From the NCBI GenBank assembly GCA_017462965.1, contig JAFTQC010000040.1, forward strand, positions 1-64,000: a stretch of 64,000 bases of DNA. Direction: 5' to 3'. Positions 13,190-55,300 of this stretch are shown piece after piece. The stretch comes from Clostridia bacterium (GTDB taxonomy: Bacteria; Bacillota; Clostridia; TANB77; UBA1234). The first letter of the stretch is position 1, and each line of letters opens with the position of its first letter. Below the pieces are notes generated by a model, which saw only the letters and a program-made list of their open reading frames with translations, was not told the DNA's origin and ran no database searches. The translations under genes and the position numbers were made by a program.

Positions 13190-13396
13190 CATTTTTGGAA
13201 ATTGGGACGGTTCCTTTTTCCAAGTTTCTAATAATCGACAACAAAAAAGTATTGTTTTTAAGCCTCGGACAACTCATTATTCATTGCAAACACGATGCAA
13301 TGAAAATGAGAACTCGGCGACAAAAAACAATACTTTTTTTGTTGTCTAAAATATGTTGCATTTTTGGAAAAAGGAACCGTCCCAATTTCCAAAAAG
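13190..13396. repeat. Composite element 1: family-B inverted ends around the structured module
   Basis: Family-B palindromes (core TTGGGACGGTTCC) lie at 13190-13225 and, inverted, at 13361-13395. Between them a module has an outer 23-bp stem (13237-13259 with 13323-13346), inner stems CTCAT/ATGAG and CATTGCA/TGCAATG (13282-13288 with 13296-13302) and a CCTCGG/CTCGGC internal loop. The module is repeated almost identically at 55.15 kb. Open frames inside it are by-products. Confidence 0.85.
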
Positions 13397-15099: not shown

Positions 15100-15330
15100 C
15101 ATCAAGAGGGACAGCCCTTTTTGAGAAATTGATATCGATTCTTGTGATAAATAAAGTATTGTTTTTAAGCCAAAAACAACTTATTTTTCATTGTACACAT
15201 GATACAATGAAGAGAAGAACTGGGTGGTAAAGAACAATACTTTTTTATTGCTAAAAATGAAATGAAATATGCTGAAAAATCAGCATTTCTTGTTAAATAA
15301 TTTTTATCAAAAAGGGGCGTCTCTCTTGCT
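15100..15330. repeat. Composite element 2: family-A ends around the structured module
   Basis: A family-A palindrome (15100-15126) and an inverted copy (15302-15330) bracket a module with the same plan as 13190-13396. It has AGTATTGTTTTTAAGCC on the left (15155-15171), AACAATACTTTTTT on the right, and an inner stem CATTGTA/TACAATG (15189-15195 with 15203-15209). Compared with the other copies, the C-G pair in that stem is a T-A pair, and the outer stem sequence also differs while remaining paired. A small GCTGA/TCAGC hairpin (about 15265-15290) lies on the right. Confidence 0.8.
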
Positions 15331-17404: not shown

Positions 17405-17506
17405 TTAATACTTTTTTGTTGTCTTAAAAAGGTTGATTTTTGGAAAAATGAACCGTCCCAATTTCCAAAAAAAAGGACAAAAGCCCCGTCCCTTTGTCCC
17501 GATTTT
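17405..17506. repeat. Truncated composite element joined to a family-C palindrome
   Basis: Bases 17405-17468 match the right end of composite element 1 (AATACTTTTTTGTTGTCT, then a family-B unit with AACCGTCCCAATTTCC), but the left half is missing. A family-C palindrome (17469-17506, GCCCCGTCCC core) follows directly. The rest of the 17300-17636 gap holds only a CCCGAT/ATCGGG hairpin at 17498-17523 and no gene. Confidence 0.7.
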
Positions 17507-17636
17507 TTGTTTGTGAGATCGGGTGAGTGCGGGCACGAAAAAGTGTGATTCGATTCATGCTGAAGTGGATATGAAGAGATTCGGTTAAATTCGGGTTTTA
17601 GACGGGTTAAACGGGCATATTTTTTGTTGACATAAC

Positions 17637-17665
17637 AACTAAAAGATGATAGAATGTCAGCGTTG
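17637..17665 (+). promoter_or_regulatory. Promoter of the ABC/OmpA/VWA operon
   Basis: TTGACA (17637-17642) and TAGAAT (17660-17665) are separated by 17 bases. The leader to the first start codon is about 125 bases; a short in-frame ATG at 17769 lies just upstream of the ribosome binding site. Confidence 0.75.
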
Positions 17666-17795
17666 GAAATAATTTTGTGCTAGCTCATATTCTAATTAGA
17701 GGAGGGTAGATAAAGATAAAAAAGTGCTGCACAAAACTAGTTACCCCTTTACCACTTGGAACGACAACATGAAAAATTGCGAGGAGGAACTTTTT

Positions 17796-19295
17796 ATGAA
17801 GCATTTGAAAACGTTCAAGGGAATCGTGCTTTCCATTCTGCTGGTATGCATGCTCGTGACGCTCACTGCCTGCGGTGGTGACAATGGTGGTTCTACGACT
17901 ACTACGACGACTGGGAATGCATATAAGGGCACGCCCAAGATTTCCATCGACGAATGGATCGGCTGGCAGTCTCTGCTGGATGCGAATGGCGGTCTCGTTA
18001 CTGCTCCTGACAGTTTGAACGCAAAGCGCGGAATTTCTGTCGAGTATGTCGTCATGAACGATGCGACAACTTCGTCTTCTGCGCTGATCAGCGGCGAACT
18101 TGTTGGCGCTGGCTATACCGTAAACCGGTATGCCTTCCTGCAGAACAAGTTTGATGAGGCGAAGCTTGAAGTTGTGATGCCCTACATCACTAACTTCAGT
18201 AACGGTGGCGATGGTATCATCGCTGAGGCAGATATCATGTCTGTTGAGGATCTGGTTGGCAAGAAAATTGCTGTTCCGAAGTTCTCAGAAGCCCAGACCT
18301 TGGTCGAGTGGCTGCTGAATAATTCCAGCCTCTCTGATGCACAGCGGAGCAAGATTCGTAGCGACATGGTTCTCTTTGAGACCCCTGACGACGCTGCGAA
18401 GGCATTCTTCTCTGGTCAGGTGAATGCTGCTGCCACGTGGGAACCCTATCTCACGCAGGCTGCTAACTCCACCGACTCTCGTATCCTGTTCGACACGAGC
18501 ATGAGCACCAACCTGATTCTGGATGGTATCGTGTTCCGGAAGGATTTCGTCGAGAATAATGGTGACTTCGTGACCAAGCTCATTGACGCGGCCCTTGAAG
18601 CTTCCAGCATGTACAAGGTTGAGTTTGCGAATATTCGCAAGCTTCCCATGTTTGAGCTTATGAGCGATGCGGAAATCATCGACATGGCAAACGGCGCCAA
18701 CCTTGCTACTTGGACTCAGAACATGCAGCTGCTCAGTGACGTTGCAGTGACCATGTATGCTGATATGGCGAATGTCTGGATTGGCCTTGGTGAAACTGCG
18801 CATCCTGCAAAGGCGAAGGCTGCTTTCACTGATGTGTATATGGCAAACCTGCGCGGCACCTATGAAGGAAAGGACACGGCTACTTCAGTTACGAATTTCA
18901 GTCAGGAAGAAAAGACTATGCTGATTGAATCTCCTGAAGCGCTGCTTTCCTACAATGCGGACATTAAGTTTGCACTCAACTCTGTTGAAATCCAGCAGAG
19001 TTCGTATGCGGAACTTGATGAGTTCGTAAAGGTTGCGAAGGTTCTTGATGGCGTGTACATCCAGATTGAAGGTAACGCTGCCCAGCGTGCGGATGGTGTA
19101 TCTGATGCTCAGATTATTGATTTCTCTGAGAATCGTGCACAGTCTGTTGCCAATTATTTCATGAGCCAGGGCATTTCGAGCGAACGAATCATCATCATCG
19201 GCAACGGTGACATGAAGCCCTTGAACTCTGAAAATCTGGCTGCTCCTGAAAACAGGCGTACTGAAATCTACTTCAAGACCAAGCTTGGCTATTAA
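17796..19295 (+). CDS. Lipoprotein: NitT/TauT-type substrate-binding domain fused to an OmpA-like domain
   Basis: The protein has 499 residues. The signal ends in the lipobox LTAC (Cys 26), so it is anchored to the outer face of the membrane. Residues ~45-385 read as an NMT1/SsuA-type binding domain (VVMNDATTSSSAL, LVGKKIAVPKFSEAQTLVEW, GQVNAAATWEPYL). Residues ~390-499 resemble an OmpA C-terminal peptidoglycan-binding domain (SENRAQSVANYF, GISSERIIIIGNGD, PENRRTEIYF), but the usual TD of the GHTD motif is replaced by EGNAA. ATG 17796 follows GAGGAGG. A hairpin after the gene may favour its expression over the permease. Substrate is unknown. A close paralog is at 21682. Confidence 0.85.
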   Translation: MKHLKTFKGIVLSILLVCMLVTLTACGGDNGGSTTTTTTGNAYKGTPKISIDEWIGWQSLLDANGGLVTAPDSLNAKRGISVEYVVMNDATTSSSALISGELVGAGYTVNRYAFLQNKFDEAKLEVVMPYITNFSNGGDGIIAEADIMSVEDLVGKKIAVPKFSEAQTLVEWLLNNSSLSDAQRSKIRSDMVLFETPDDAAKAFFSGQVNAAATWEPYLTQAANSTDSRILFDTSMSTNLILDGIVFRKDFVENNGDFVTKLIDAALEASSMYKVEFANIRKLPMFELMSDAEIIDMANGANLATWTQNMQLLSDVAVTMYADMANVWIGLGETAHPAKAKAAFTDVYMANLRGTYEGKDTATSVTNFSQEEKTMLIESPEALLSYNADIKFALNSVEIQQSSYAELDEFVKVAKVLDGVYIQIEGNAAQRADGVSDAQIIDFSENRAQSVANYFMSQGISSERIIIIGNGDMKPLNSENLAAPENRRTEIYFKTKLGY

Positions 19296-19314
19296 GCTAG
19301 GCAGAGAACTAATG

Positions 19315-19351
19315 AGAAGAGGGGCTGGGCTAAAAACTTGGCCCCTTTTCT
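19315..19351 (+). terminator. Intercistronic hairpin after the first binding protein
   Basis: An 11-bp stem (19315-19325 with 19341-19351) with a short T-rich 3' side, in the gap before the permease. It is a likely attenuator or mRNA-end stabiliser that gives more binding protein than permease. Confidence 0.6.
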
Positions 19352-19392
19352 TAGCAAATTCACAGGAAAATAAAGGTAGAAAGGAGCATAGG

Positions 19393-20157
19393 ATGCACAT
19401 GCGAAAGCATCTTTCGAAAGTTATGTTTCTTCTCGCTATCATCGCCATTTGGTGGGCTGGTAGCGTGATTGTAAACAAAAGCTTGTTTTTGCCGTCTCCT
19501 GCAGAAACGTTCGCGATGATTGCGGAACTTTTTAAGACAGGAGCATTCTTCAAGCATCTGGGATCTAGCTTTATCAGAGTGACTGGCGGTGTAGTTATTG
19601 CGGCTGCGATTTCGATTCCGTTGGGCATGCTGATTGCGTGGTATAAGCCGGTAAATCGCTTGCTTAAGCCTATCGTAGACTCGCTTCGGTATATTCCGGT
19701 AACTTGCTTTTCGCCAATGCTCGTTTTGCTTTTGGGTATTGATGAGAAAATGAAAGTCACTTTCCTTGTGATTGCGGCTCTTTTCTCTTTCTTGCCCACG
19801 GTAATTCAGACGTGTAGCGAACCGATTGATAAGCTCAAGGAAACCGCGTATACGATGGGATTTAGCTATAGCAGAATGCTTTGGAACTGCTTTATTCCTT
19901 ATGTAACACCGTCTTTGCTCCAGTCTCTGATTACTCTTTATGGTGTTGGCTGGACCTACGTGATTATTGCTGAGGTAAACAATACTCAGTATGGTCTGGG
20001 GCATCTGATGTATATCGGTTCTGCAAGAGGTAAGACGGCGATGGTATTTGCGGCAATCGTAATTATCATCGTGGTTAGTTTCCTTTTCGACAAGTTGGCG
20101 AACATGATTGTCAGGAAAACGTTTAAATGGAGGTTTAGAGATGAAGTCAAATCCTAA
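19393..20157 (+). CDS. ABC transporter permease, SsuC/TauC type
   Basis: A 254-residue integral membrane protein of the BPD_transp_1 family with about six helices. It has the PSPAETFAMIAELF start typical of nitrate/sulfonate/taurine-type permeases and the EAA-like loop (ETAYTMGFSYSRMLWNCFIPYVTPSLLQ). ATG 19393 is 6 bases after AAGGAG; an ATG at 19399 is an alternative. Its end overlaps the ATPase start by 17 bases. It probably dimerises and pairs with the ATPase and one or both OmpA-fused binding proteins. Confidence 0.9.
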   Translation: MHMRKHLSKVMFLLAIIAIWWAGSVIVNKSLFLPSPAETFAMIAELFKTGAFFKHLGSSFIRVTGGVVIAAAISIPLGMLIAWYKPVNRLLKPIVDSLRYIPVTCFSPMLVLLLGIDEKMKVTFLVIAALFSFLPTVIQTCSEPIDKLKETAYTMGFSYSRMLWNCFIPYVTPSLLQSLITLYGVGWTYVIIAEVNNTQYGLGHLMYIGSARGKTAMVFAAIVIIIVVSFLFDKLANMIVRKTFKWRFRDEVKS

Positions 20158-20929
20158 TGAAGAGCTGCTTAAGCAGGATGTTCTCGAGAAGGATCTTGCC
20201 GAAAAGTATCTTATCGAGCATAATCTTCTTGAGCTTCGCGACTTTGGTATGGCTTTTGGCGAAAATGTGCTTTTCTCGCACTTTGACTACACCTTTGAAC
20301 CGGGAATTTATGCATTTTCCGGACCTTCTGGTGTTGGTAAAAGTACGGTTATGCGTGTTATCGCGGGCCTTGAAACTCGGTATACTGGCGATGTTATCTT
20401 GAATGGTAGCAAGCTTACGACGTATACCCCGGAAATTCATATGGTGCATCAGCATTATACGAGTTTTCCTTGGCTCAATGTCATTAAAAATACGCTGATG
20501 GTGTATAAAGGGCATCAGAAAGAAATCACCGCTGCTGACATTGAGGAAGCAAAGGTACTTCTGGAGCGACTCGGTCTTGGCGAGCACATGTACAAGTTGC
20601 CTAGTCAGCTTTCTGGTGGTCAGGATCAGCGTCTCAGTCTTGCCAATGCTTTCATGAATAAGTGGAGCAAGGTGATTATGTATGATGAACCTACCTCTGC
20701 GCTTGACATTGCAAACGATATGCTTATTGTTGAGATGATCAAGGAACATCAGCGTAAGTATAACACCATCGAAATCATCATTACTCACGAGGACCATGTT
20801 GTCGAGGGCCTTGACGCCAAAATTCTGGAATTCACTCCTGAGTTTAGGCTTAAGCCCCCGAAGAAAAAAGAAGTCGAGAAGAAAGGAGCTGTAAATGATG
20901 AAGCGGTCGCTCAAACTGATTCTCATTGA
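20141..20929 (+). CDS. ABC transporter ATPase, SsuB/TauB type
   Basis: A 262-residue ATPase with an extra N-terminal helix of about 35 residues. It has Walker A GPSGVGKST, Q-loop HQHYTSFPWLNV, signature LSGGQDQR, Walker B VIMYDEPTSAL and the switch His in ITHEDH. The Pro/Lys-rich tail (KPPKKKEVEKK) is unusual. ATG 20141 follows TGGAGG. It overlaps both neighbours, showing coupled translation. Confidence 0.93.
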   Translation: MKSNPNEELLKQDVLEKDLAEKYLIEHNLLELRDFGMAFGENVLFSHFDYTFEPGIYAFSGPSGVGKSTVMRVIAGLETRYTGDVILNGSKLTTYTPEIHMVHQHYTSFPWLNVIKNTLMVYKGHQKEITAADIEEAKVLLERLGLGEHMYKLPSQLSGGQDQRLSLANAFMNKWSKVIMYDEPTSALDIANDMLIVEMIKEHQRKYNTIEIIITHEDHVVEGLDAKILEFTPEFRLKPPKKKEVEKKGAVNDEAVAQTDSH

Positions 20930-21638
20930 TGCTGCAATTGTTTGCATCAATATTGCATTCTTCACGAATGTCAAGCTTACGGGATTCTTTCAGTTCATTC
21001 TGGCGTTTATCGTTGTTGCTGGAAGTATCCTGACTCACTTCGGCATGTGGAGTAAGGCTGCACCTCAGGAAGATGAAAGCCTGGTGGAGCAGATGAACAG
21101 CATTCTTCAGAGCGAAGATTCTGGTTTTGGCACGTACATGGCCAAGCTTCGTGTGATGAAGAAAGGAAATCCTGAATTTGCGGAGGTTATCAATCAGTTC
21201 ATCAGACAGATTGATTCCTTCTCGAAGAAGGCAGAAGCTCTTATGAACCTTATCGATATTAATAACGGTAAGGCCAAGGAGTTCCTCATTGCCAGGAACA
21301 ATGATGTTCAGCTGTTCTTGATTCGGAATCTCAAGAAGTTCGTGAAGCGCCTGATTGTTTACAATGCTAAGACGAAGAAAAATCGTTCTGGTAGCATTGA
21401 AGAAGAGGCGACTGTCCAGGAAATCCTCCAGAACAACAACGAGTTGATTGACCTTTATGATCATCTGCTCGATGAAGTTGCAAGGATGGGCGATGATTTC
21501 AATCTTCAGGATCCTGGTCTTCAGAGTGTTATCGAAAGCTTGCAACAGCTTCGTGCGGGCTCTGATGATGTGGAGGATGATGATGGCGAAATCGAGCTTC
21601 AGGTCATGACTTCTTCTGGCAAGGCGACTTACAGGTAA
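20895..21638 (+). CDS. Two-helix membrane protein with helical cytosolic domain (possibly XpaC-like)
   Basis: A 247-residue protein. Two hydrophobic helices near the N terminus (about 7-22 and 28-47) are followed by an all-helical Glu/Lys-rich domain (FAEVINQFIRQIDSFSKKAE, LIRNLKKFVKRLIVYN) and an acidic tail (DDVEDDDGEIEL). The layout recalls the XpaC family, which often accompanies TelA proteins, and telA lies at the end of this island; the similarity is by layout only. ATG 20895 follows AAAGGAG inside the ATPase gene, so translation is coupled. Confidence 0.65.
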   Translation: MMKRSLKLILIDAAIVCINIAFFTNVKLTGFFQFILAFIVVAGSILTHFGMWSKAAPQEDESLVEQMNSILQSEDSGFGTYMAKLRVMKKGNPEFAEVINQFIRQIDSFSKKAEALMNLIDINNGKAKEFLIARNNDVQLFLIRNLKKFVKRLIVYNAKTKKNRSGSIEEEATVQEILQNNNELIDLYDHLLDEVARMGDDFNLQDPGLQSVIESLQQLRAGSDDVEDDDGEIELQVMTSSGKATYR

Positions 21639-21681
21639 CGTGTGTACACTTTGAAATAGTTGAAGAAGGAGGAATTTCTTC

Positions 21682-23190
21682 ATGAGGAATAAGCGCTCGA
21701 AGCATGTTCTTCAGATGGTCATCAGCGCGGTGGTCATGGTTGCTATCGTTGCTGGATACCTTGTCATTTCTGGCAATATTGGTGGCACGAAAACTCCTGC
21801 CCCTGGGCAGGACTATGTGAACGCCGATGTGCCGACTGTCCGTATTTCGCTTGATGAGTTCATTGGCTGGAAGCCGCTTATCTATGCGAACGGCGGTCTT
21901 ACGACCAAGGAAGGTAGTATCAATGCAAGAAACGGCATCAAAATCCAGTATGTTGTGACGAATGATGCAAATGTTTCCTCTGCGGCGCTTATCGATGGCG
22001 ACTTGCAGGGTGCGGGCTACACGGTTAATCGGTATGCCTTCCTGCAGTCCAAGTTTGATGAGGCTGGCGTTGAGGTGATCATGCCTTACATCAGCAATTA
22101 CAGCAACGGCGGCGATGGTATCATTGCTTCTGCTGATATTCTTTCTGTCGAAGATCTTGTTGGTAAGCGTATTGCAGTCCCGCGTTACTCCGAGGCTCAG
22201 ACCTTGGTCGAGTGGCTGATTCGCAATTCTTCGCTTACAGACGAGCAGGTTACTCAGATTCGAAAGGATATTGTCTACTTCGAGACTGCTGACGAAACTG
22301 CGAAAGCTTTCTTCTCTGGCCAGGTCGATGCGGCTGCTACGTGGGAGCCCTATCTCACGCAGGCGGCCAGCGCAACGGATTCCAGGATTTTGTTTGACAC
22401 GTCGATGGGTACTAACCTGATTCTTGATGGTTTGGTGTTCAGAACTGACTTCGTCGAACAGAATGAAGAATTCATCGTAAAGCTTATCGACGGTGCGCTT
22501 GAGGCAAATTCCATGTATACTCGTGAGTTTGATAGTATCAAGGTGATGCCGATGTTCGAGCTCATGACGTCGGAAGAAATTGCTGAGATGTGTGCTGGCG
22601 CTTCTGTTGCTACTTGGGCTGATAATGTAAGTTTGCTTGGCAACAATGCTGTCGAGATGTATAAGCAGATGGCTAACATCTGGATTAGCGTCGGCGAGCA
22701 GGCGAATCCCAAAAAGGCTGAAACTGCTTTTACCAATAAGTATGTAAATCAGCTGCTTGGCAAGTATCCGGCCAATGATGTCACGTCCTTCAAGTTCACC
22801 GAAGAGGGAAGGCAGACTGCCAATCAAATCTCGAACAATTCTGCATTGCTTAGCGTCACTTTGAACATTGAGTTTGATACGGACTCGTACAAAATTGCAA
22901 GGAGTTCCTACGAAGATCTCAATCAATTTGCACAGACGGCTCAAATCCTCAATGGCGTGTATATCCAAATTGAGGGTAACACCGCTAAAGTGCCTGGCGA
23001 TGACGGCGTTGACTTCTCCTACAAGCGTGCTCTCAGTGTTGCGAAATACCTGCAGGCGCTTGGGGTTGATTCGGAGCGTTTCATTATCATCGGTAACGGC
23101 GATACCAAGCCGATTGCCAGTAATGAAACTGAAGAGGGCAGAGCCGCAAATCGCCGCACTGAAGTGTACTTCAAGGTGATTGGTTACTAA
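21682..23190 (+). CDS. Second substrate-binding/OmpA-like fusion, membrane-anchored
   Basis: A 502-residue paralog of the 17796 gene with the same order: binding domain (VVTNDANVSSAAL, LVGKRIAVPRYSEAQTLVEW, GQVDAAATWEPYL) then OmpA-like domain (SYKRALSVAKYLQALGVDSE, FIIIGNGDTKPI, ANRRTEVYF). Unlike the first copy it has an uncleaved-looking N-terminal helix (about residues 10-30) and no lipobox Cys. ATG 21682 follows GAAGGAGGA. The two copies differ in their linkers and ends, so the duplication is not recent. Different anchoring suggests different positions relative to the wall. Confidence 0.85.
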   Translation: MRNKRSKHVLQMVISAVVMVAIVAGYLVISGNIGGTKTPAPGQDYVNADVPTVRISLDEFIGWKPLIYANGGLTTKEGSINARNGIKIQYVVTNDANVSSAALIDGDLQGAGYTVNRYAFLQSKFDEAGVEVIMPYISNYSNGGDGIIASADILSVEDLVGKRIAVPRYSEAQTLVEWLIRNSSLTDEQVTQIRKDIVYFETADETAKAFFSGQVDAAATWEPYLTQAASATDSRILFDTSMGTNLILDGLVFRTDFVEQNEEFIVKLIDGALEANSMYTREFDSIKVMPMFELMTSEEIAEMCAGASVATWADNVSLLGNNAVEMYKQMANIWISVGEQANPKKAETAFTNKYVNQLLGKYPANDVTSFKFTEEGRQTANQISNNSALLSVTLNIEFDTDSYKIARSSYEDLNQFAQTAQILNGVYIQIEGNTAKVPGDDGVDFSYKRALSVAKYLQALGVDSERFIIIGNGDTKPIASNETEEGRAANRRTEVYFKVIGY

Positions 23191-23199
23191 GGTTTCTTG

Positions 23200-23240
23200 G
23201 AAAGGGGAAGGAATTGCTTTAAAGTGATTCCTTCTCCTCC
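23200..23240 (+). other. Intercistronic hairpin
   Basis: A GGAAGGAAT/ATTCCTTC inverted repeat lies between the second OmpA fusion and the VWA gene, without a clean T run. It is probably an mRNA-processing or stabilising structure rather than a full terminator. Confidence 0.45.
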
Positions 23241-23279
23241 TATAAATTTATGTTTTAATTCAAGGAGGCGGAATCCATA

Positions 23280-24977
23280 ATGAAGCGGAAGTACTTCACA
23301 TTTCTCATGGTTATCTTTATGCTGTTCGTGTTTACCGGGTGCGAACTGATGGAGCCTGTTTATCAGCCTGGTACGGTGACTAAGGAGAACGCTGTTGAGA
23401 TTACCGATAAGCTCGGTATTTCTGTGCAGACGTCGAAGCCTGTCAAGGGAACGATTCCGGAGTTTGCGGCGGACAATGCAAATGCTGCGGAGCCTGTATT
23501 TATGTACGAGCTTCCTTCAATCTCGAATTATCCGCTCGATGTTGAGGGAAAAGGAGAGGTAAACATTGAGGTGTTTGTACCGCTTGAGAACAATGGGAGC
23601 TCTATCCGAGAATTCGTATCGTATGCTGCGGAAATGTTCAACACAGCAGGTCTTACTGTCGGTGATCCCGCGAAAACTGTGTCTGTATCAGTGCGTAGTC
23701 TCGAAGCGAGCCTCGCGGAAGAATATATCCTAAATGGGGTGTATTATCCCAAGGGATACGTCGCCGCGAATGAGCTTTACGGTGTCTTGATGCAGGAAAA
23801 TGGTATCGAAGTTTCTTTGATGCAACCGAAAACTGCTGGTAACACGATGGGTGTTGTTACAAGCAAAGCAAAGTATGACGAATTGTGTGCCAAGTATGGT
23901 GAAATGACCATCGCCACGCTTATCAAGGCGAATGAAGATGGTGCAATTTCGATCGGCTATACCAATCCGACGAATAATCCTACTGGTCTTAACTTCGTCA
24001 TTTCGATGCTGAGCTACTTCGATGCTAACAATCCGATGAGCATGGAGGCAACCACTGATTTCTCGAATTTCCAGAATACCGTTTCTGCGGTTTCGTTCTC
24101 GACGACTCAGATGAAGCAGGCTGTTTTGGATGGAGCTATTGATGCTTTCGTCCTTGAACATCAGGCTTTTGAGAGCGACGAATCGCTTAAGAATGATTTC
24201 GTGTTCATGCCTTTTGGTGTGCGCCATGACAATCCTCTTTATGCGGTCGGAACTCTTACTGACGAAGAAATGGCTGTTTTGAAGCTTTTCGGCGAGTATT
24301 TCGAGAATGATGCGGTGAAGGCACATGCAGCGCAGCTCGGCTTTGGCAAGAATGCTGAGTATGTAAGCACGGTTAAGAATTATTCTGGTGCGATGATTTC
24401 CACAATTCTTGATTTCTGGAAGGAAGAAAAGTCTTCTGGCAAGCAGATTGTGGCGGTATTCGTAGCGGATAGGTCTGGTAGCATGTCTTCGCGTGGAAAA
24501 CTTGATGCGCTCAAGGAGTCCTTGAAGAATGCGATGCAGTATGTCGGTGAGCAGCATAAGGTTGGCCTTATTAGCTACAGCGGCACGGTTTACATCGATT
24601 TGCCGATTAGCGAGTTCACAACTGAGCAGCAGGAATACTACGTTGGTGCGATTGATTCGTGGAGCGCAAATGGCGGAACTGCCACTAACAACGCGCTTCT
24701 CATCGCTCTGAAGCTTCTGCATGAAGAGCAGCAGGCGAATCCCAATATCAAGCCCATCGTATTCCTTCTCAGCGACGGTCACACCGAAAGCGGCTATTCG
24801 CTCAGCAGCACGAAGGAAATCATGGACGCTTACGATATCCCGATTTACACGATCGGCTATGAGGCAAACATCGACGAACTCAAGAAGATCGCCGAAATCA
24901 ATCAGGGCGCATTCATTAATGCGACCAGCGACGATGTTGGTTATATCTTGAAAACGCTCTTCGATGCGGAAATCTAA
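23280..24977 (+). CDS. Lipoprotein: substrate-binding-like domain fused to a VWA domain
   Basis: A 565-residue protein. The lipobox is FTGC (Cys 21). Residues ~90-380 resemble a periplasmic-binding-protein type II fold (VEVFVPL-type strands, GYTNPTNNPTGLNFV, DAFVLEHQAF, LGFGKNAEYV). Residues ~388-560 form a von Willebrand factor A domain with an intact MIDAS: DRSGS (397-401), a Thr in GGTATNN (~467) and Asp 499 in LLSDGHTESG. VWA domains bind partners through a metal ion. ATG 23280 follows AAGGAGGC. It is the last gene of the operon and a strong terminator follows. Confidence 0.85.
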   Translation: MKRKYFTFLMVIFMLFVFTGCELMEPVYQPGTVTKENAVEITDKLGISVQTSKPVKGTIPEFAADNANAAEPVFMYELPSISNYPLDVEGKGEVNIEVFVPLENNGSSIREFVSYAAEMFNTAGLTVGDPAKTVSVSVRSLEASLAEEYILNGVYYPKGYVAANELYGVLMQENGIEVSLMQPKTAGNTMGVVTSKAKYDELCAKYGEMTIATLIKANEDGAISIGYTNPTNNPTGLNFVISMLSYFDANNPMSMEATTDFSNFQNTVSAVSFSTTQMKQAVLDGAIDAFVLEHQAFESDESLKNDFVFMPFGVRHDNPLYAVGTLTDEEMAVLKLFGEYFENDAVKAHAAQLGFGKNAEYVSTVKNYSGAMISTILDFWKEEKSSGKQIVAVFVADRSGSMSSRGKLDALKESLKNAMQYVGEQHKVGLISYSGTVYIDLPISEFTTEQQEYYVGAIDSWSANGGTATNNALLIALKLLHEEQQANPNIKPIVFLLSDGHTESGYSLSSTKEIMDAYDIPIYTIGYEANIDELKKIAEINQGAFINATSDDVGYILKTLFDAEI

Positions 24978-24985
24978 CCATTGTG

Positions 24986-25022
24986 AAATCGTCCACGAGG
25001 GACGTCCGTCAAATGGACGAAA
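24986..25022. repeat. Family-D palindrome
   Basis: CGTCCACGAGGGACGTCC followed by GTCAAATGGACG; an inverted-orientation relative lies at 45079-45116. It shares the GGGACG core with the other families. Confidence 0.7.
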
Positions 25023-25032
25023 CTCAAAAAAA

Positions 25033-25060
25033 GAAAACCAGGAATTTCTTCCTGGTTTTC
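25033..25060. terminator. Bidirectional terminator between the VWA gene and telA
   Basis: A 12-bp stem GAAAACCAGGAA/TTCCTGGTTTTC (25033-25044 with 25049-25060), with T-rich tracts on both strands. It can end the operon and the convergent telA. Confidence 0.85.
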
Positions 25061-25065
25061 TTGCG

Positions 25066-25103
25066 TAAAAAAGGACAAAGGGACGGGGCTTTTGTCCTTT
25101 TTT
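25066..25103. repeat. Family-C palindrome
   Basis: AAAGGACAAAGGGACGGGG and its partner half CTTTTGTCCTTTTTT form a palindromic unit directly next to the terminator at the end of telA. Confidence 0.8.
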
Positions 25104-25106
25104 GTG

Positions 25107-26255
25107 TTACATCTGGAGAAGCTTGTTCTTGAGATCCCTTTCAAGGAGCTGAAGTTCGGCTTCGGCACTGTGACGCTTTTCGCGACCATCGGCCTGAATC
25201 TGCTGGACTTCCGTGATGGTGTCGATGAGCTTCTGGTTGGTCTCGACGAGAGTCTCGATGTCGATGATACCACGCTCTGCTTCGCGAGCAACATCGATAG
25301 TACCGGTCTTCAGATTCTCTGCATTCTTGCGGAGCAGATTGTTGGTCATGTTGGTAACACTCCTTTGTGCTCTCATGGCGTTCATCGAGTTGGCGAGGCC
25401 GAGAGCGATGACCATCTGACTCTTCCAAAGAGGAATAGTATTCACGACGGTCGACTGGATCTTGTCAATGAGCAACGAATCATTGCCCTGGAGGAGACGG
25501 ATCTGCGATGCCATTTGCATGGCGACGGTGCGGGAAAGCATAAGGTCATGAAGCTTCTTGTCGAAGCGCTCGAGTGCATCCGCAAAGTCCTTGTACTCCA
25601 TGGCTGCCTGATGGTCAGACGTGTTCTGCGCAGCGATACGAAGTTCTTCGAGGCGAGTTGTACGAAGTTCTTCGAGACGCTTCTTGCCGGCCAGGATGTA
25701 CATGGAGAGTTCCTTGAAGTAGTGCTGATTGTGCAGGTAAAGCTCGTCGAGCATCTTGAGGTCTTGCATCAGCGTGAGCTGGTGTTCTTCAAGATGACCA
25801 ACGATACGTTCAACGTTCGTGGAAACCTTGGAATACTGGGTACGCAGACCAGAAACCAATTTCTTCAGCTTTCGAAGGCTGGCATTGTTGAACTTGGCGG
25901 TATCGGGAGAGAAGTCCTCGAGTTCGCCAATCAGGTCAGTCAGCATACCACCGGCATCGCCGAGATCTCTTGTGCGAACCCGTTCCAAAGTGGTGTCAGA
26001 AAACGCAGCAATTTTCTTCTGCGCACCAGCACCATACTGGAGAACCAGGCCGCTGTCAGAGACGTCGATTTGCTTGGTGAAGGCTTCGATTTGGGCCAGT
26101 TCCTTCTCGGAAAACGCTGCTTCCATCTCAGTGATTTCGGTTCTGGAATTATCGGCAGGGGCAACAGGAGTCGTGGTGATTTCAGGCTCGGCCTGAGGGG
26201 CGAGTTCCAAAGTGATTTCGGGCATCGCCATGGCTTGAGAAGTAGTGTTGCTCAT
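25107..26255 (-). CDS. telA: TelA-family (toxic anion resistance) protein
   Basis: A 382-residue soluble, mostly helical protein of the TelA/KlaA family (pattern: ELEDFSPDTAKFNN, LDELYLHNQHYFKELSMYILAGKKRL, SQIRLLQGNDSLLIDKIQ, NTIPLWKSQMVIALGL, LVETNQKLIDTI). TelA was named from plasmid tellurite resistance and appears in many stress-linked gene clusters; its reaction is unknown. An acidic Pro/Thr-rich N-terminal 50 residues is extra. ATG 26255 follows TAGGAGG. It has its own promoter and faces the ABC/OmpA/VWA operon, with the same GC-rich codon style, so a shared origin and function is likely. Confidence 0.9.
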   Translation of the reverse strand: MSNTTSQAMAMPEITLELAPQAEPEITTTPVAPADNSRTEITEMEAAFSEKELAQIEAFTKQIDVSDSGLVLQYGAGAQKKIAAFSDTTLERVRTRDLGDAGGMLTDLIGELEDFSPDTAKFNNASLRKLKKLVSGLRTQYSKVSTNVERIVGHLEEHQLTLMQDLKMLDELYLHNQHYFKELSMYILAGKKRLEELRTTRLEELRIAAQNTSDHQAAMEYKDFADALERFDKKLHDLMLSRTVAMQMASQIRLLQGNDSLLIDKIQSTVVNTIPLWKSQMVIALGLANSMNAMRAQRSVTNMTNNLLRKNAENLKTGTIDVAREAERGIIDIETLVETNQKLIDTITEVQQIQADGREKRHSAEAELQLLERDLKNKLLQM

Positions 26256-26295: not shown

Positions 26296-26324
26296 AATAT
26301 ATCACAGAACGCTAATTATGTCAA
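26296..26324 (-). promoter_or_regulatory. Promoter of telA
   Basis: TTGACA (26319-26324) and TATATT (26296-26301) on the minus strand are separated by 17 bases, about 40 bases before the start codon. Confidence 0.75.
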
Positions 26325-31740: not shown

Positions 31741-34700
31741 ATGAAAACAGTATTAAATACGCTTAAAGAGAAGCTTAATACTTTAGGATACAATGAAACA
31801 ATTATTAACTCGACTTTATCAAAATTTGATTTGGCGTTGGTTGAAAATGCTGCTTCAGATTTTGAAAATGTGGACGAGCTTATAACTATTGAAGAATATG
31901 ATGAACCTAATGTTGAAATCATTAGGATGTTTTTGAATGTTAATAATGATATGTTGCAATGTGAAGTTTTGGAAGGGGATATTACTCTTTCTGCTACTGA
32001 ATCAGCGGTGGGGACTAGATTTGCGATTGCTGATTATACTCTTTCAAAAAGAAATGTAATAATGGGAATTACTACTAATTTTAAAGTGAAAATTATTGCA
32101 TACAAACCAACTCCTAAAACACAAAATTTGTATAACGGAATGACGTATGAACAGGCGTACAAAAAGGAAAGAGATGAAGTAACATTATCGTATTATGAAG
32201 CGTTTGTTGATAACGTTACTAGAAGCGGTAAGGCGACGGAACGTAAAGTTAAAGAGATTATTACTCTTCTTGTTTCTGATTTTGTGATTGATGAAATTGC
32301 AATAAAGGATTTAAATCCAAGATTTAAAATGTATGATAACGAGTATAAGTATGCGGAAAATATTTATTCATATTCGATTAGATATATAAATCTTAGAACA
32401 AATAGAGTTGAATTTTTTGAGAAAGATGCAAATATTAAAATGATTTCTAAAAATGTTCAACCAGGAATTATTAGTAATGATCCTTATATAAAAGTTGACA
32501 AACCACTTGTTGAAGCGGATTTTCCACTAAATACAGTTTCGTATTATTGGATTGGAGCAAGCAAAGGTGTTCAAGAACAAATTGCTATTTTTATTTCGCC
32601 AAGAGTTTATGAACAAGCGATGTTTTCTGAACTTAAGAAAGATGATCCAAGAATTGAAAATCTTGCTAGAGATCTTACAAGAAGATTTAAAAGAGAAACA
32701 AATCAAGAAGTTGACTTTGACGATATAAAAGATGTTTTAAGAAAATTAAATTTTGAACTTATGTGTCCATCTATTGATATAATACGTGCAAATATGCCAA
32801 ATAAAACTGATCCAATAGAGCCTATCAAATACAAATATAAAGTAATAACGGATCCAGCAGAATTTGAAGAAAAATTGTATATAACAATAGAAGACCACAT
32901 GGCAAAACGTTATAGATATAAACTTGTAGAAAATGTTTTAGAAGATTTAACTACAGTAGGAAATAAACTTGAATATACAGATGAAAAAGGTTCAATGGTT
33001 CGTAAGCAATCAGTAGCTGACTTTAATGTAAATACACCTGCGGTAGTAATTAGAAGAGAAACATTTATTGATGCTGAAGGTATTCCTGATTTGCTTGGAT
33101 ACATTTATCAAGATATGAAATATTATGGAACAGATGCATTACCAGTTCCAAATATTGAAGTTGTTTTTTACATGCCACCAATGGACTCAGATCGAGGATC
33201 GGTTGCAATGTATAATGGAACAAGCTTAGAATTTAGTTTGGCAAATATATCAAACCAAAACTTCTTTAATTCTGAACAAGTTTCGGGAAATAATTCATAT
33301 GTAATTGGTGGAGGAGCTATTTTACCTGGTTCAACAACAGTTACAGTAAGGTATATAAATTCGAAAGATGAAATACTTAAAGAAAATGTTATCGCAAATG
33401 TATTCCCAAAAACATCATATTTGCCAGATGTTATTCCTGTAATTAATGATAAGGATGGCAAAGAGTGGATACTTGAAAATAATAACATTATTCCAACAGT
33501 TTTATCATCAAAAGCGGATGAAAATGTTATACAGATTAAGTATATAGAAAAATATGCAAGAGTAAGTTTTTCATTCATCAATCGAGAAGGAAAAAAACTT
33601 GTTGATGACAAACAAGAACTTGTTCAAGTTGGAACAAATTACGATTTTTCAACAAAACAGATTTGTAGAGATAAAAACGGAGAAGATTGGAAACTTTTAA
33701 ACACAAGACCTTCAAAATTAATTGTTTCTGATGTTGAAGAAAAAAATAAAATTATTTTGATTTATGATATTGAACGTGCAGACATAACGATTAGATTCAT
33801 AAATAGGGCAGGCGAGCAAATTGCTGATGATAAGATTGTCCAAGGTGCGGTAGAAAAATTATATAAGGCAGATTCTGTTCCTTATATTGTTGATTCTAAT
33901 GGATTAGGTTGGAGTTATGTTGAAGGTTCGAACGCGACAGTACTTGTTAAAAATACAGAGCCAAATATAATTACTTTAGTTTATGAAGAAGCAAAACAAA
34001 AAGTTATTACTCGAATAAAAAATGAAGAGGGGCTTCCATTAATTGATGACGAAATTGTATTTTTACAAATTGGTAAGAAATATAAAGTGGACTTCGAAAG
34101 CATGGTATATGATTTAGAATGCAAGGAATGGAAACTTTCTAGAACAGTAGTTAGCGAGATTGTTGTAGATAGAGATGGAAATAAAAACTTATTAGAAGCG
34201 ATATATGAGCCAAGATTATCAAGAGTCGCTATAAAGTTTGTTGGTTTAGACGGTAGACAAATTCGTGAATCGGCAGTGGAACAAGCGCAAATTGGTGCTA
34301 GATTTAATGCTGAAAGTATGAGCGAAATTCCTGATAGTTTCGGAAAAGTATGGTCTTGCATTGAAGGTGGAACAGGAATAATAATTTCTGAAAATGAAAG
34401 AGAAAACGCTGTTACGCTTAAATATGAGCCACTTATGGCGAAAGTTACACTTAAATATTATGATGCAGAATCAAATGAACTTATAGCGCCTAAATATGAA
34501 ACATTGCAAGTTGGAACTGTTTATAAAAATAAACCAATGATGAAGATTACCGATGAATCAGGTAAACGCTGGATAATTGATGAAGCTAAGGTTCCTACTA
34601 TTACAGTTAATAAACATGAAGAGGAAAATATAGTTTCAATATATTATGATAAAGAAAATACTAAAGTTACAATCACTTTCTTTGATGCTTTTGGAAATAA

Positions 34701-37700
34701 ATTAAGAGAAGCACAAGACGTTGAATCACAAATAGGTGCATTGTATAATTCAGAGTTATTCCTTAAAATTAGTGATACTCAAGGCAATAGATGGATGCTT
34801 GAAAGTTCTGAGCCAAAGAACTTGATGGTTAGAGAAAACGGAAATAATTTCAAATTCATATATGGAGAAGTTAAGGCAAAAGTATTAGTAAAACATATTG
34901 ATATTGCTTCACAAAAAGCCATTGTTGAGGATGTTATTTCAACAATCAAATTAGGTGGAATTTTTATTCCTAACATTAGACAGAAAATATTAGACAAAAA
35001 TAAGTGGCAATGGAAATATATTGGTGATGAAAATATTTCAATTGTTACAAAAGAAAATGAGCAAGAAAACATTATCATATTAAATTATGAAGAGGATAGA
35101 AGCGATGTTGTTTTAAAATATCAAACACTTGACGGAACTACGATTAGAGCTGATGCTGTAAAGAAAGTACAGATAGGTAAGGAAATAAAGATTGATCATG
35201 TACTTAAGTTTAATGATAATGATGGACTTGGTTGGAAGTATGTTAAATCATCACTTGGCACACAAGTTGTAAAACCTGAAGAAAATATTATTATAGATTC
35301 GTATGAACCATTACTTGCAAAAGTTGTTACTAAGTATGTTTTCGAGGATAATATGGAAATCGTACAAGCTAAAGAAGAGAACATCCAAGTCGGTAAGAAG
35401 TTTGTTCCGGAAATACTTGAAAGAATTACTGACAAGGAACGTGCTTTGTGGTCATATGTTAGTGTTTCTGATGATGAAATAATTGTTAAAGAAGAAGTAA
35501 ATGTAGTTGAATGCAAGTATGAGAAAACGTTGGCTGAAACTACAGTTAGATATGTTGATGAGCAAGGCGAATTAATTGCTGATCCTATAGTTGGTAAATA
35601 TCAAATTGGTACAATTTTTGCTGCGACGATTGAGAAGAATTTTGAAGATAAAGAAGGCAAAGCTTGGATTTTTGGTAGTGTAGATTATGAAAAAATTACG
35701 GTTCAAGAAGAATCTGAGAAAAATATCATTAATGTGACGTATAAGAAAGAAATGGTTGATTTAAAACTTTGTTTCTTTGGTTCAGGTCTTCAAACTATTA
35801 AGACTGCGCAGATTGTTAAGGCACAAATTGGAAGTATATATATTGCTAAACCTATGAATGTCATAATTGATGAAAAATCTTTAGGTTGGGAACTTAGAGA
35901 AGATTTGATTCCTAAGTTTAAAGTAAACAGAAATCCGACTGAGAATATTGTAAATATAAGTTATGATAAGTACATGGTTGATGCAATTGTTCAATTTATC
36001 GATGATGAGAATAATGCTGTTATTGAACCAAGTGTGACGAAGCATCAAGTTGGAACAACGTTTATGCCTGAAATTGAAGATTATATTGAGGATAAGGAAG
36101 GCAAGGAATGGGTGTATGCAATAAAAGTTGAGAATAAGGTCTTCACAATGACTAAGAAAATTGAACCGATTGTTATTAGTGAAGCTGTTGGAAAGAACTT
36201 AATTAAACTGCATTACAAACCATCGATGAATAAAGTTACGATTAAATATAAGGATCCAATGGGCACAGATATAAAGATGCAAATGGTTACAGAAGCTCAA
36301 ATTGGTTCTAACTATACACCAGAAATTATTAAAAATATTGTTGGTGCTGGTAACATTAAATGGGTTTATAATCCTAATAGTAAATCGACTATTAAGATTA
36401 ACAGAGATCCTGGTAAGAATGTCATAAATCTTGCTTATGAAGAGCAAAAAGCTACGGTTATTTATAAATATTTTGATGAGGATAAAAATATTTTGAAAGA
36501 TGAAAAGAAACAACTTGCGCAGATTGGTAGTGTGCATAGGGTTGATCCTGAAAATATTGTTGAAAGTAGCGATGGTAGAGTTTGGGAATATAAAGCGAAG
36601 AGTCTTGATGAGGTTAAAGTCGATGATAATGAAGCTAACAACGTCGTTGAGATTGTGTACATGCCGCTTAAAGTTGATGTTGTTTTGAAATTTATAACAT
36701 TGAATGGAAATACAATTTTACCAAGCAAGATTGTTAAAGCGCAATTGGGTAGTGAATATAAAGCTCCTGTTGAGCAGACGATAACAGATGATGAGTCTAG
36801 GTTATATAAATTTGTTAAGGTTGAGCCTGCTTCAATAAAAGTTAAAGAAATTCCACTTGGTAAAGAGGATAATAATGATATAAATGTTTTTGAAATTACG
36901 TATGAATCTTCTTTCAGCGAAGCTAGAATTGTTTTCAAGGATATTGATGGCAATAAGTTAAGGGATGATGAAATTAAGCAAATGCAAGTTGGTACTATGT
37001 TTGCACCATCTCCAATTCAATATATTACAGATAGAAAAGGTATTCAGTGGGAGCTTATTAATGATAAGGTCGATCCAATTAGAGTTATGGAGGATGCTCG
37101 TCAAAACCAAATAACAATGGTTTATGAGGTTGCGAAAGCTGAGATTTCTGTTAGATTTAAAGATATGGATGGAAATGCGATTCGTGAGGCCAAGTTGTTC
37201 TATTTAGAAGTTGGCAGTGAATTCGTTCCTGAAGTTGAAGATGAGATAGTGGATTCTCAAAACAGAAAATGGATATATACGATGACCGATCCAGTAAAAC
37301 TAACGGTTGGAAGTATCAATAATATTATTAATATTGTGTATCAAGAAAAGAAAGCTATGACTGTTATTAAAATTCAAACGACTGATGGCAAGACGTTAAG
37401 GGATGATGTTAAGACAAAACAACAAGTCGGAAGTAAGTATGTTCCTGTTCCTGTTACTAAGGTTATTTATGACAATAACAATAATATTTGGAGATTTGCA
37501 TTTAACAGTCCAAGTGACATTATTGTTTCTGAAAATGTCGAGGAAAATGTGGTAATTCAGTATTTTACAACAGATGATTCTGTTAAGAAAGAAGATACAA
37601 ACAAGACATTTAATCCTGATATTTCTCGATTTATTGATAAGGATTTAGTTGCTGAAGCTGAAAAAGAAGAAGCTGAGAAGAAAAAACAAGAAGAAGAAAA

Positions 37701-38553
37701 AGCTCAGATGAAAGCTGCGATGCCAGAAGAAGAAAAAGTTAATTTCACTGATCCATATTTACAAAATTTAGAAAGAAATATGAATTTAACTAATAAACAA
37801 AAAGGTGTAATTAATCAATTAAATGATTACAATGCTAGTATTATAAAACTATTGCATGAGGCACTAAAGTATCCTGGCAACATAGATGATCTTAATTTGT
37901 CTGATAAGCTTGATAAGTTGATTCGCGAAGAGAAAGAACTTCTTAATACTGGTTTGAAAGACGTAATCGAAGAAGATAGAAGTGGTAACAAGATTAATAG
38001 AATACTTGAAGCTATAACAGCTTCTGAAACGACAGATAAGAATTTCAGTTTATTGCAGACTAAAAAAGCGGTTTCATTTGCAGAGTATTTTATAAAGAAG
38101 AATACAACTGACAAAGAAGATGCAAGATTCATTTTAGACAGAGGTAAAAATGATAAAGGTATAGAATGTGTTAACAAGAAGATTGCTGAATCTAAGCAAC
38201 CTGTACCTGAACTTATAACTTTGAAAGTTGCATTAATATATGAAAAAGCAATACTTGATAATTACGTTAGAGCGAGATCGTTAATTAAAGATGAATATTT
38301 CAAAAATGATGAAAGTAAAGAAAAATTGTCTCGTGAAGTTATTGTAGAGGTTACAAATACACTTCCAGATGAAGCCTTAAAACTTTTCAACAGATGTTTG
38401 AATCTTTCAGTAAGTCAAAGAAATGAATTAGATGCAATAATGAAATTATTAAGTTCTCAACAATTAACAACAGTACAAAATGGAATTAATAAGATTTCAG
38501 AAGGAAAGATAAGAAAAACAGCATTAAAGCTATATAAAGAAATCGTAGGGTAA
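31741..38553 (+). CDS. Giant MucBP-like repeat protein without signal peptide
   Basis: The protein has 2270 residues. Residues 1-530 form a unique region with no recognised family. Residues ~531-1942 hold about 19 repeats of ~74 residues with the plan KVTIKFID-x-G-x-L, then QIG-x-x-Y, an I-x-D-x-x-G-x-x-W core and an ENIINI-x-YE end, resembling MucBP-type beta domains. A Glu/Lys-rich linker (~1960-2000) leads to a helical C-terminal domain (~2000-2270). There is no signal peptide, no transmembrane helix, no LPXTG and no SH3/SLH anchor, so it appears cytosolic or exported by an unknown route. ATG 31741 follows GAGGTGA. It sits among glycogen genes; its role is unknown. Confidence 0.85.
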   Translation: MKTVLNTLKEKLNTLGYNETIINSTLSKFDLALVENAASDFENVDELITIEEYDEPNVEIIRMFLNVNNDMLQCEVLEGDITLSATESAVGTRFAIADYTLSKRNVIMGITTNFKVKIIAYKPTPKTQNLYNGMTYEQAYKKERDEVTLSYYEAFVDNVTRSGKATERKVKEIITLLVSDFVIDEIAIKDLNPRFKMYDNEYKYAENIYSYSIRYINLRTNRVEFFEKDANIKMISKNVQPGIISNDPYIKVDKPLVEADFPLNTVSYYWIGASKGVQEQIAIFISPRVYEQAMFSELKKDDPRIENLARDLTRRFKRETNQEVDFDDIKDVLRKLNFELMCPSIDIIRANMPNKTDPIEPIKYKYKVITDPAEFEEKLYITIEDHMAKRYRYKLVENVLEDLTTVGNKLEYTDEKGSMVRKQSVADFNVNTPAVVIRRETFIDAEGIPDLLGYIYQDMKYYGTDALPVPNIEVVFYMPPMDSDRGSVAMYNGTSLEFSLANISNQNFFNSEQVSGNNSYVIGGGAILPGSTTVTVRYINSKDEILKENVIANVFPKTSYLPDVIPVINDKDGKEWILENNNIIPTVLSSKADENVIQIKYIEKYARVSFSFINREGKKLVDDKQELVQVGTNYDFSTKQICRDKNGEDWKLLNTRPSKLIVSDVEEKNKIILIYDIERADITIRFINRAGEQIADDKIVQGAVEKLYKADSVPYIVDSNGLGWSYVEGSNATVLVKNTEPNIITLVYEEAKQKVITRIKNEEGLPLIDDEIVFLQIGKKYKVDFESMVYDLECKEWKLSRTVVSEIVVDRDGNKNLLEAIYEPRLSRVAIKFVGLDGRQIRESAVEQAQIGARFNAESMSEIPDSFGKVWSCIEGGTGIIISENERENAVTLKYEPLMAKVTLKYYDAESNELIAPKYETLQVGTVYKNKPMMKITDESGKRWIIDEAKVPTITVNKHEEENIVSIYYDKENTKVTITFFDAFGNKLREAQDVESQIGALYNSELFLKISDTQGNRWMLESSEPKNLMVRENGNNFKFIYGEVKAKVLVKHIDIASQKAIVEDVISTIKLGGIFIPNIRQKILDKNKWQWKYIGDENISIVTKENEQENIIILNYEEDRSDVVLKYQTLDGTTIRADAVKKVQIGKEIKIDHVLKFNDNDGLGWKYVKSSLGTQVVKPEENIIIDSYEPLLAKVVTKYVFEDNMEIVQAKEENIQVGKKFVPEILERITDKERALWSYVSVSDDEIIVKEEVNVVECKYEKTLAETTVRYVDEQGELIADPIVGKYQIGTIFAATIEKNFEDKEGKAWIFGSVDYEKITVQEESEKNIINVTYKKEMVDLKLCFFGSGLQTIKTAQIVKAQIGSIYIAKPMNVIIDEKSLGWELREDLIPKFKVNRNPTENIVNISYDKYMVDAIVQFIDDENNAVIEPSVTKHQVGTTFMPEIEDYIEDKEGKEWVYAIKVENKVFTMTKKIEPIVISEAVGKNLIKLHYKPSMNKVTIKYKDPMGTDIKMQMVTEAQIGSNYTPEIIKNIVGAGNIKWVYNPNSKSTIKINRDPGKNVINLAYEEQKATVIYKYFDEDKNILKDEKKQLAQIGSVHRVDPENIVESSDGRVWEYKAKSLDEVKVDDNEANNVVEIVYMPLKVDVVLKFITLNGNTILPSKIVKAQLGSEYKAPVEQTITDDESRLYKFVKVEPASIKVKEIPLGKEDNNDINVFEITYESSFSEARIVFKDIDGNKLRDDEIKQMQVGTMFAPSPIQYITDRKGIQWELINDKVDPIRVMEDARQNQITMVYEVAKAEISVRFKDMDGNAIREAKLFYLEVGSEFVPEVEDEIVDSQNRKWIYTMTDPVKLTVGSINNIINIVYQEKKAMTVIKIQTTDGKTLRDDVKTKQQVGSKYVPVPVTKVIYDNNNNIWRFAFNSPSDIIVSENVEENVVIQYFTTDDSVKKEDTNKTFNPDISRFIDKDLVAEAEKEEAEKKKQEEEKAQMKAAMPEEEKVNFTDPYLQNLERNMNLTNKQKGVINQLNDYNASIIKLLHEALKYPGNIDDLNLSDKLDKLIREEKELLNTGLKDVIEEDRSGNKINRILEAITASETTDKNFSLLQTKKAVSFAEYFIKKNTTDKEDARFILDRGKNDKGIECVNKKIAESKQPVPELITLKVALIYEKAILDNYVRARSLIKDEYFKNDESKEKLSREVIVEVTNTLPDEALKLFNRCLNLSVSQRNELDAIMKLLSSQQLTTVQNGINKISEGKIRKTALKLYKEIVG

Positions 38554-55099: not shown

Positions 55100-55300
55100 A
55101 ACTTGGAAATTGGGACGGTTCTTTTTTCCAAATTTTATGAAAGTCAGACGAAAAGAGTATTGTTTTTAAGCCTCAGACAACTCATTATTCATTGCAAACA
55201 CGATGCAATGAAAATGAGAACTCGGCGACAAAAAACAATACTTTTTTCGTTTAATTAAATGATTCGTTTTTTTGAAAAAGGAACAGTCCCAATTTCCAAG
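55100..55300. repeat. Composite element 3: family-B ends around the structured module
   Basis: Family-B units lie at 55100-55135 and, inverted, 55270-55300. The module (about 55147-55252) matches element 1 over ~88 bases with a single base difference that I can find (CTCGG to CTCAG). Its outer stem flanks differ (ACGAAAAGAG with CTTTTTTCGT) yet still pair. All three copies have the same plus-strand orientation. Confidence 0.85.

Follow-up and report, generated by a model that had tools for sequence, protein, structure and literature searches.

A candidate envelope-stress locus of gut Clostridia combines a TelA module with an ABC transporter core found mainly in large phages

Introduction

The closest described counterparts of the locus reported here are bacterial operons that encode a PspA/Snf7-TM protein, an AAA+ ATPase, an ABC ATPase, a permease and a PBPB-OmpA protein (Ravi et al. 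2024, PMC11237479). As presented there, OmpA is proposed to bind peptidoglycan and PBPB to bind a solute, and the PspA-ABC-PBPB-OmpA operons are proposed to couple membrane remodelling with transport. The PspA-type ABC and PBPB-OmpA operon of bacteria is, from that 2024 account, already known; in its main text, neither phages nor TelA or VWA proteins are brought up in connection with such operons. TelA itself has been linked to the cell envelope: L. lactis raises the expression of telA1 and of an XpaC-like gene when it responds to membrane-protein stress (PMC3139573), and TelA affects the resistance of Listeria to nisin and wall antibiotics, according to work cited in PMC12791056.

Here we analyze a seven-gene locus in a 64,000-nucleotide stretch of DNA (the window) from a gut Clostridia bacterium, whose genome (G000) comprises 2.07 Mb in 76 contigs. 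The locus shares with the operons described in PMC11237479 an ABC ATPase, a permease, a binding protein-OmpA fusion and the link to a membrane-stress protein. It differs from those operons, as described there, by a triad of TelA, VWA and two-helix proteins, by two binding proteins instead of one, and by the lack of PspA and AAA+ proteins; none of the seven genes in the window encodes an AAA+ ATPase. Within the literature searched, the spread of the transporter module in large phages, its probable transfer to a chromosome and the exchange of PspA for the TelA triad are new; a full-text literature search returned no published description of the phage module.

Results

Six co-directional genes (17796-24977) are followed by a convergent telA, in the order and with the domains given in a preliminary description based on the sequence, as borne out by Pfam matches and by a Shine-Dalgarno-like sequence at the likely start of each of the seven genes. 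With gene starts refined, the first gene, on the forward strand at 17796-19295 (starting at 17796 rather than 17724), encodes a lipoprotein with lipobox LTAC, an NMT1 (SsuA/TauA-like) domain (Pfam, E = 2e-7) and an OmpA domain (PF00691, 4e-14). It is followed by an ABC permease of the BPD_transp_1 family, TauC/SsuC-like by Pfam (9e-15) and by the permease tree (19393-20157), an ABC ATPase with Walker A, Walker B, LSGGQ and H-loop motifs (20141-20929; 1e-22), a two-helix membrane protein with a long coiled coil (20895-21638), a second, membrane-anchored binding protein-OmpA fusion (21682-23190; OmpA 5e-16) and a lipoprotein with SBP_bac_11-like and VWA domains (23280-24977; VWA 3e-19), all on the forward strand. 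The reverse-strand telA, of the toxic anion resistance family (PF05816, 3e-110), occupies 25107-26255, starting at 26255.

In a consensus scan, the two top-scoring promoter-like sites precede the first gene of the operon and telA. Both are putative and match the consensus at 11 of 12 positions, with a TG before the -10 element: TTGACA-17-TAGAAT on the forward strand at 17627-17655, and TTGACA-17-TATATT on the reverse strand at 26296-26324. Terminator-like hairpins lie between the convergent units (25031-25101, one of them at 25031-25062). Because telA has its own promoter-like site and such a hairpin separates it from the operon, it is probably a separate, convergent transcript.

Two further elements were observed in the window. 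A partly palindromic repeat, about 190 bases long and with matching ends of 25-29 bases, is present at 13199-13388 and 55107-55295; partial copies lie at 15150-15256 and 17407-17464, one of them just upstream of the cluster. With about 12 near-full copies and many short end fragments genome-wide, the repeat looks like a MITE. At 31741-38553, downstream of a glycogen phosphorylase-like gene, a 2270-residue protein with many degenerate repeats, MucBP-like by eye, is encoded, and it occupies the same place in sister genomes.

The Pfam matches in the window cluster (NMT1/NMT1_2 plus OmpA in two proteins, BPD_transp_1, ABC_tran, VWA and TelA) resemble those of the SsuABC/TauABC importers in the NMT1 binding fold, the permease and ATPase families and the intact ATPase motifs, which a motif scan found in all members checked. 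The cluster departs from these importers in the OmpA domain on its binding proteins, in the presence of two binding-protein paralogues and in its permeases, which fall in a clade apart from those of ordinary importers. In both fusions the N terminus bears a membrane or lipid anchor, and the OmpA domain lies at the C terminus. In PDB fold matching the binding-protein fold was nearest to TauA and SsuA; for the second fusion (AF2 model, pLDDT 77) the best match was TauA (6ssy, E = 2e-15, TM-score on the target 0.74).

The usual peptidoglycan-binding pair of an OmpA domain consists of an Asp and an Arg that hold diaminopimelate. The invariant Arg is kept in all copies; the Asp is replaced in the window, in the chromosomal copies and in most G-type phage copies, and is kept in Lak-type phages. 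With one residue of the pair present and the other lost, binding of the wall by this domain is uncertain. In the VWA domain, the MIDAS residues (DxSGS, T and D) are present in the alignment. The VWA lipoprotein had been described as a fusion with a binding protein, which corresponds to an SBP_bac_11 domain in its N-terminal half; the window copy itself gave no SBP_bac_11 match, and the assignment holds through its orthologues (4e-9 and 6e-5).

The two-helix protein (AF2 model, pLDDT 70.6) yielded no PDB fold match at E <= 0.001. Its earlier labelling as XpaC was not borne out: the protein itself had no Pfam match above chance, and neither the five members of its family nor the related triad members matched XpaC in Pfam. 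Homology to the PspA-like protein of the phage modules described below was likewise rejected, with an hhalign probability of 2.9% in direct comparison and, when the triad family served as intermediate, of 50% across 66 columns. The protein is homologous along its length to the first protein of a triad found elsewhere in Bacillota (hhalign 97.4%, E = 9e-12).

Among 385 genomes of the window's order, the binding protein-OmpA family was found in 12. The full seven-gene set (variant A), in the same order and with convergent telA, is present in five of them (G000, G006, G008, G012 and G344), which represent four genera, and named records L025-L028 hold the same set. Each of the five clusters retains all seven genes, with identities to the window of about 20-74%. 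The fusions with OmpA and with VWA, and a neighbouring telA in convergent orientation, recur in all five clusters of this type; their restriction to this strain would have spoken against a single system. The telA copies have diverged to as little as 23% identity and to lengths as short as 231 residues, marking telA as a long-standing companion of the cluster. TelA scored above the cut-off in 96 of the 385 genomes, that is, in 5/5 carriers and in 91/380 others (Fisher p = 0.0009, with kinship ignored). Since all seven genes co-occur in every genome with variant A (5/5), the set is, by gene content, one inherited unit.

The locus is not fixed at its site. In the sister genome G005, whose pyruvate kinase is 94% identical, the operon is missing and a telA remnant sits at the same site, between spore-coat genes and pyruvate kinase; in G003 these flanks adjoin directly, leaving an empty site. 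From the remnant in G005 and the joined flanks in G003, we read the site as variable and the operon as deleted in G005. None of 397 other sampled Bacillota genomes carries the transporter core, so it is rare in chromosomes, and a plasmid search gave weak matches only, none spanning 80% of the query.

By tblastn, the binding protein-OmpA fusion matched Bacillus phage G, with 52% identity across 89%, and further Lak megaphages, a phage of 735 kb and a phage record from faeces. Genes gp243-gp250 of phage G include a permease, an ATPase and two binding protein-OmpA genes. Among IMG/VR viral contigs, a single-protein scan gave no match, but an alignment query revealed 51 loci that carry the module, on contigs of up to 497 kb; these loci represent 41 distinct binding-protein sequences and are not all independent. 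The module consists of a small coiled-coil protein, a PspA/IM30-like membrane protein, a binding protein-OmpA fusion, a permease and an ATPase; all five genes are present on a single strand in 46 of the 51 loci, and at least four in 49. It occurs in two gene orders, G-like and Lak-like, whose coiled-coil and PspA-like proteins belong to the same families (profile comparison, 96% and 98% probability). The PspA-like partner scored above the PF04012 cut-off for L022 and L078, the family matched 10 of 22 members, and the top PDB matches were Vipp1 and PspA. In four records that are possibly fragmentary, namely three phage contigs and one short record (L022, L076, L078 and L093), the ATPase is absent beside the module and no ABC_tran match exceeded the cut-off. 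In Clostridium sp. 12(A) and [Clostridium] citroniae, the module lies in regions with phage replication genes. The core of the transporter, made up of binding protein-OmpA, permease and ATPase, is syntenic in phage G, Lak, the 735-kb phage and the 51 viral loci. On this distribution, it belongs chiefly to large phages.

The window thus shares with phage G and Lak the permease, the ATPase and the binding protein-OmpA fusion, for which identity in phage G is 49-52%; phage G, like the window, encodes two copies of the fusion. The partners differ: the phage modules carry PspA/IM30-like and small coiled-coil proteins, with no TelA nearby and no VWA protein. VWA gave no match in the phage collection, and TelA was found inside none of the phage modules and in one of eight phage records, W03 (Lak-B5), at 169860-170831, about 108 kb from the ABC-OmpA module. 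Sinorhizobium phage Phosso and another phage, of 636 kb, also encode TelA. The second fusion of phage G, gp250 (L021, 13464-15020), has lost an ATWEP-like motif that is kept in its phage G paralogue (ATWQP) and in both window copies, and therefore may have lost ligand binding.

In both phage lineages, some loci have NAD-salvage genes (pncA and those for NAMPT, NadE, NadR and PnuC) close to the module (L032, 2647-6175; L054; L089, 679-5423; L052, 11833-14364; L074, 7284-7775), and in L074 nadR and pnuC are placed inside it, between the ATPase and coiled-coil genes. Most phage loci have none within reach, and none were seen beside the chromosomal clusters. Import of NAD precursors was rejected as the function, given that these genes accompany a minority of phage loci and are absent near the chromosomal clusters; we keep it as a lead.

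In two genomes of the same order (G023 and G055), a chromosomal core is accompanied by coiled-coil and PspA-like genes (variant B) and lies beside housekeeping genes. In variant A these two genes are absent and the two-helix, VWA and telA genes stand in their stead; PspA_IM30 (PF04012) had no match anywhere in the five variant-A genomes. Conversely, TelA, SBP_bac_11-VWA and two-helix proteins homologous to those of the window form a triad in other Bacillota (L164, L166-L168 and L170; two-gene forms in L165, L169 and L171) and in one genome from the same genus as the window (L176), there without a transporter, whereas in the window the triad is interleaved with one. Since the core occurs elsewhere with the PspA pair and the triad elsewhere without a transporter, the window cluster is, by gene content, a merger of two modules found apart. 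The exchange of the PspA pair for the triad is positional, because the two-helix protein has no detectable PspA homology; from the shared position we infer functional equivalence.

Other arrangements were observed in the same order. In another of its families, a binding protein-OmpA fusion is encoded alongside an unnamed protein about 385 residues long, and a nearby ABC protein has an FtsX domain in place of an importer permease (L118, 4281-11354; L119, 60-5684; L120, 5088-10974). In the order's usual telA operon (L172 and L175), the genes beside telA encode a lipoprotein that resembles binding proteins and a protein about 580 residues long.

A permease tree, built by a quick method and rooted on ordinary importers, separated these importers as outgroup (SH-aLRT 99). 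Within the ingroup, Lak-type phages branch off. Variant A forms a chromosomal Clostridia clade together with L029 and L031 (support 100), and G-type phages surround this clade, with support of 93-99 for the enclosing forks. A tree of the binding protein-OmpA fusions, rooted at the midpoint, has the same shape, with support of 100/100 for the chromosomal clade and the duplication that gave rise to the two fusions at the base of variant A. Because the chromosomal copies nest among phage copies, the trees favour a single transfer of the core from phage to chromosome; the deep placement of the long branches is unsure.

Discussion

Based on these results, we suggest, with a probability of roughly 0.45, that the locus encodes a wall-tethered ABC transporter of the SsuABC/TauABC kind that derives from large phages and has been recoupled to a TelA-type envelope-stress module. 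The binding proteins would bridge the membrane and peptidoglycan and supply the permease with a small ligand that is probably anionic. Together with cytosolic TelA, the VWA lipoprotein and the two-helix protein would fill the role of PspA, preserving the membrane against membrane- or wall-acting agents, and transporter and stress module would act as one complex. In phages, the corresponding machine would preserve the envelope of the infected cell, or feed that cell, through a long infection. The initial guess of a membrane- or wall-stress system that uses ABC parts appears to fit, since both TelA/VWA, as found here, and the PspA/IM30-like partners found elsewhere are tied to envelope stress in the literature. 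The affiliation with Ter-type systems held in part: TelA (PF05816) is present, but TerD (PF02342) had no match in the five carrier genomes, in a search whose positive controls matched, and a Ter system was rejected. Against our proposal count the loss of the Asp in the OmpA domain, the lack of detectable PspA homology in the two-helix protein, the probable transcription of telA apart from the operon, the NAD-salvage genes near some phage modules and the loci lacking an adjacent ATPase, though these last may be fragments.

The proposal competes with simpler readings. That the seven genes are neighbours by chance is highly improbable: telA does lie on the opposite strand with a promoter-like site of its own, but synteny of seven genes across five genomes and four genera, the excess of telA among carriers and the telA remnant at the G005 deletion site led us to discard this explanation. 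A more serious contender, which we still consider rather unlikely, is an ordinary importer of a small nutrient (a sulfonate, phosphonate, pyrimidine or NAD precursor), in which OmpA would only position the binding proteins and TelA and VWA would be separate fellow travellers. Every importer part has intact motifs, the binding fold is nearest to TauA and SsuA, and the NAD-salvage genes near some phage modules, with pnuC-nadR inside that of L074, could reflect plain nutrient uptake. Yet the TelA, VWA and two-helix genes are intermingled with those of the transporter, all five clusters retain them, the core is elsewhere equally tightly bound to a PspA-like protein, and the NAD genes are confined to a minority of phage loci.

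The third reading, a captured phage device that protects against phages, strikes us as improbable. It holds that the phage module guards the envelope against superinfection or early lysis and that the chromosomal copy shields the bacterium. The phage origin of the core indicated by the trees would agree with it. So would the patchy distribution and dispensability of the locus: 12 of the 385 genomes have the binding protein-OmpA family, the site is empty in G003, and G005 shows the scar of a deletion. Equal patchiness would, however, be expected of any accessory stress gene. PADLOC matched no whole system model and returned generic ABC and OmpA/MotB matches only, which also led us to reject a known defence system, and defence genes were not seen beside the cluster.

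Alongside the proposed transporter coupled to a stress module, we tentatively entertain a broader scheme: large phages that infect Gram-positive hosts and, if Lak is a guide, Gram-negative ones may encode a complete wall-tethered ABC machine for envelope maintenance during infection with a PspA-like partner of its own, and Clostridia may have swapped the PspA pair for the triad, with TelA as the functional counterpart of PspA.

Complete ABC importers are not standard phage cargo. That two distant groups of very large phages share this one, with its gene order preserved, points to a real job during infection; the phage G version is amenable to study in a laboratory host. TelA has been known for decades as a tellurite- or antibiotic-resistance protein without a mechanism. 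A TelA module that takes the place of PspA on the same transporter provides a testable idea, namely that TelA and PspA may be equivalent at the membrane.
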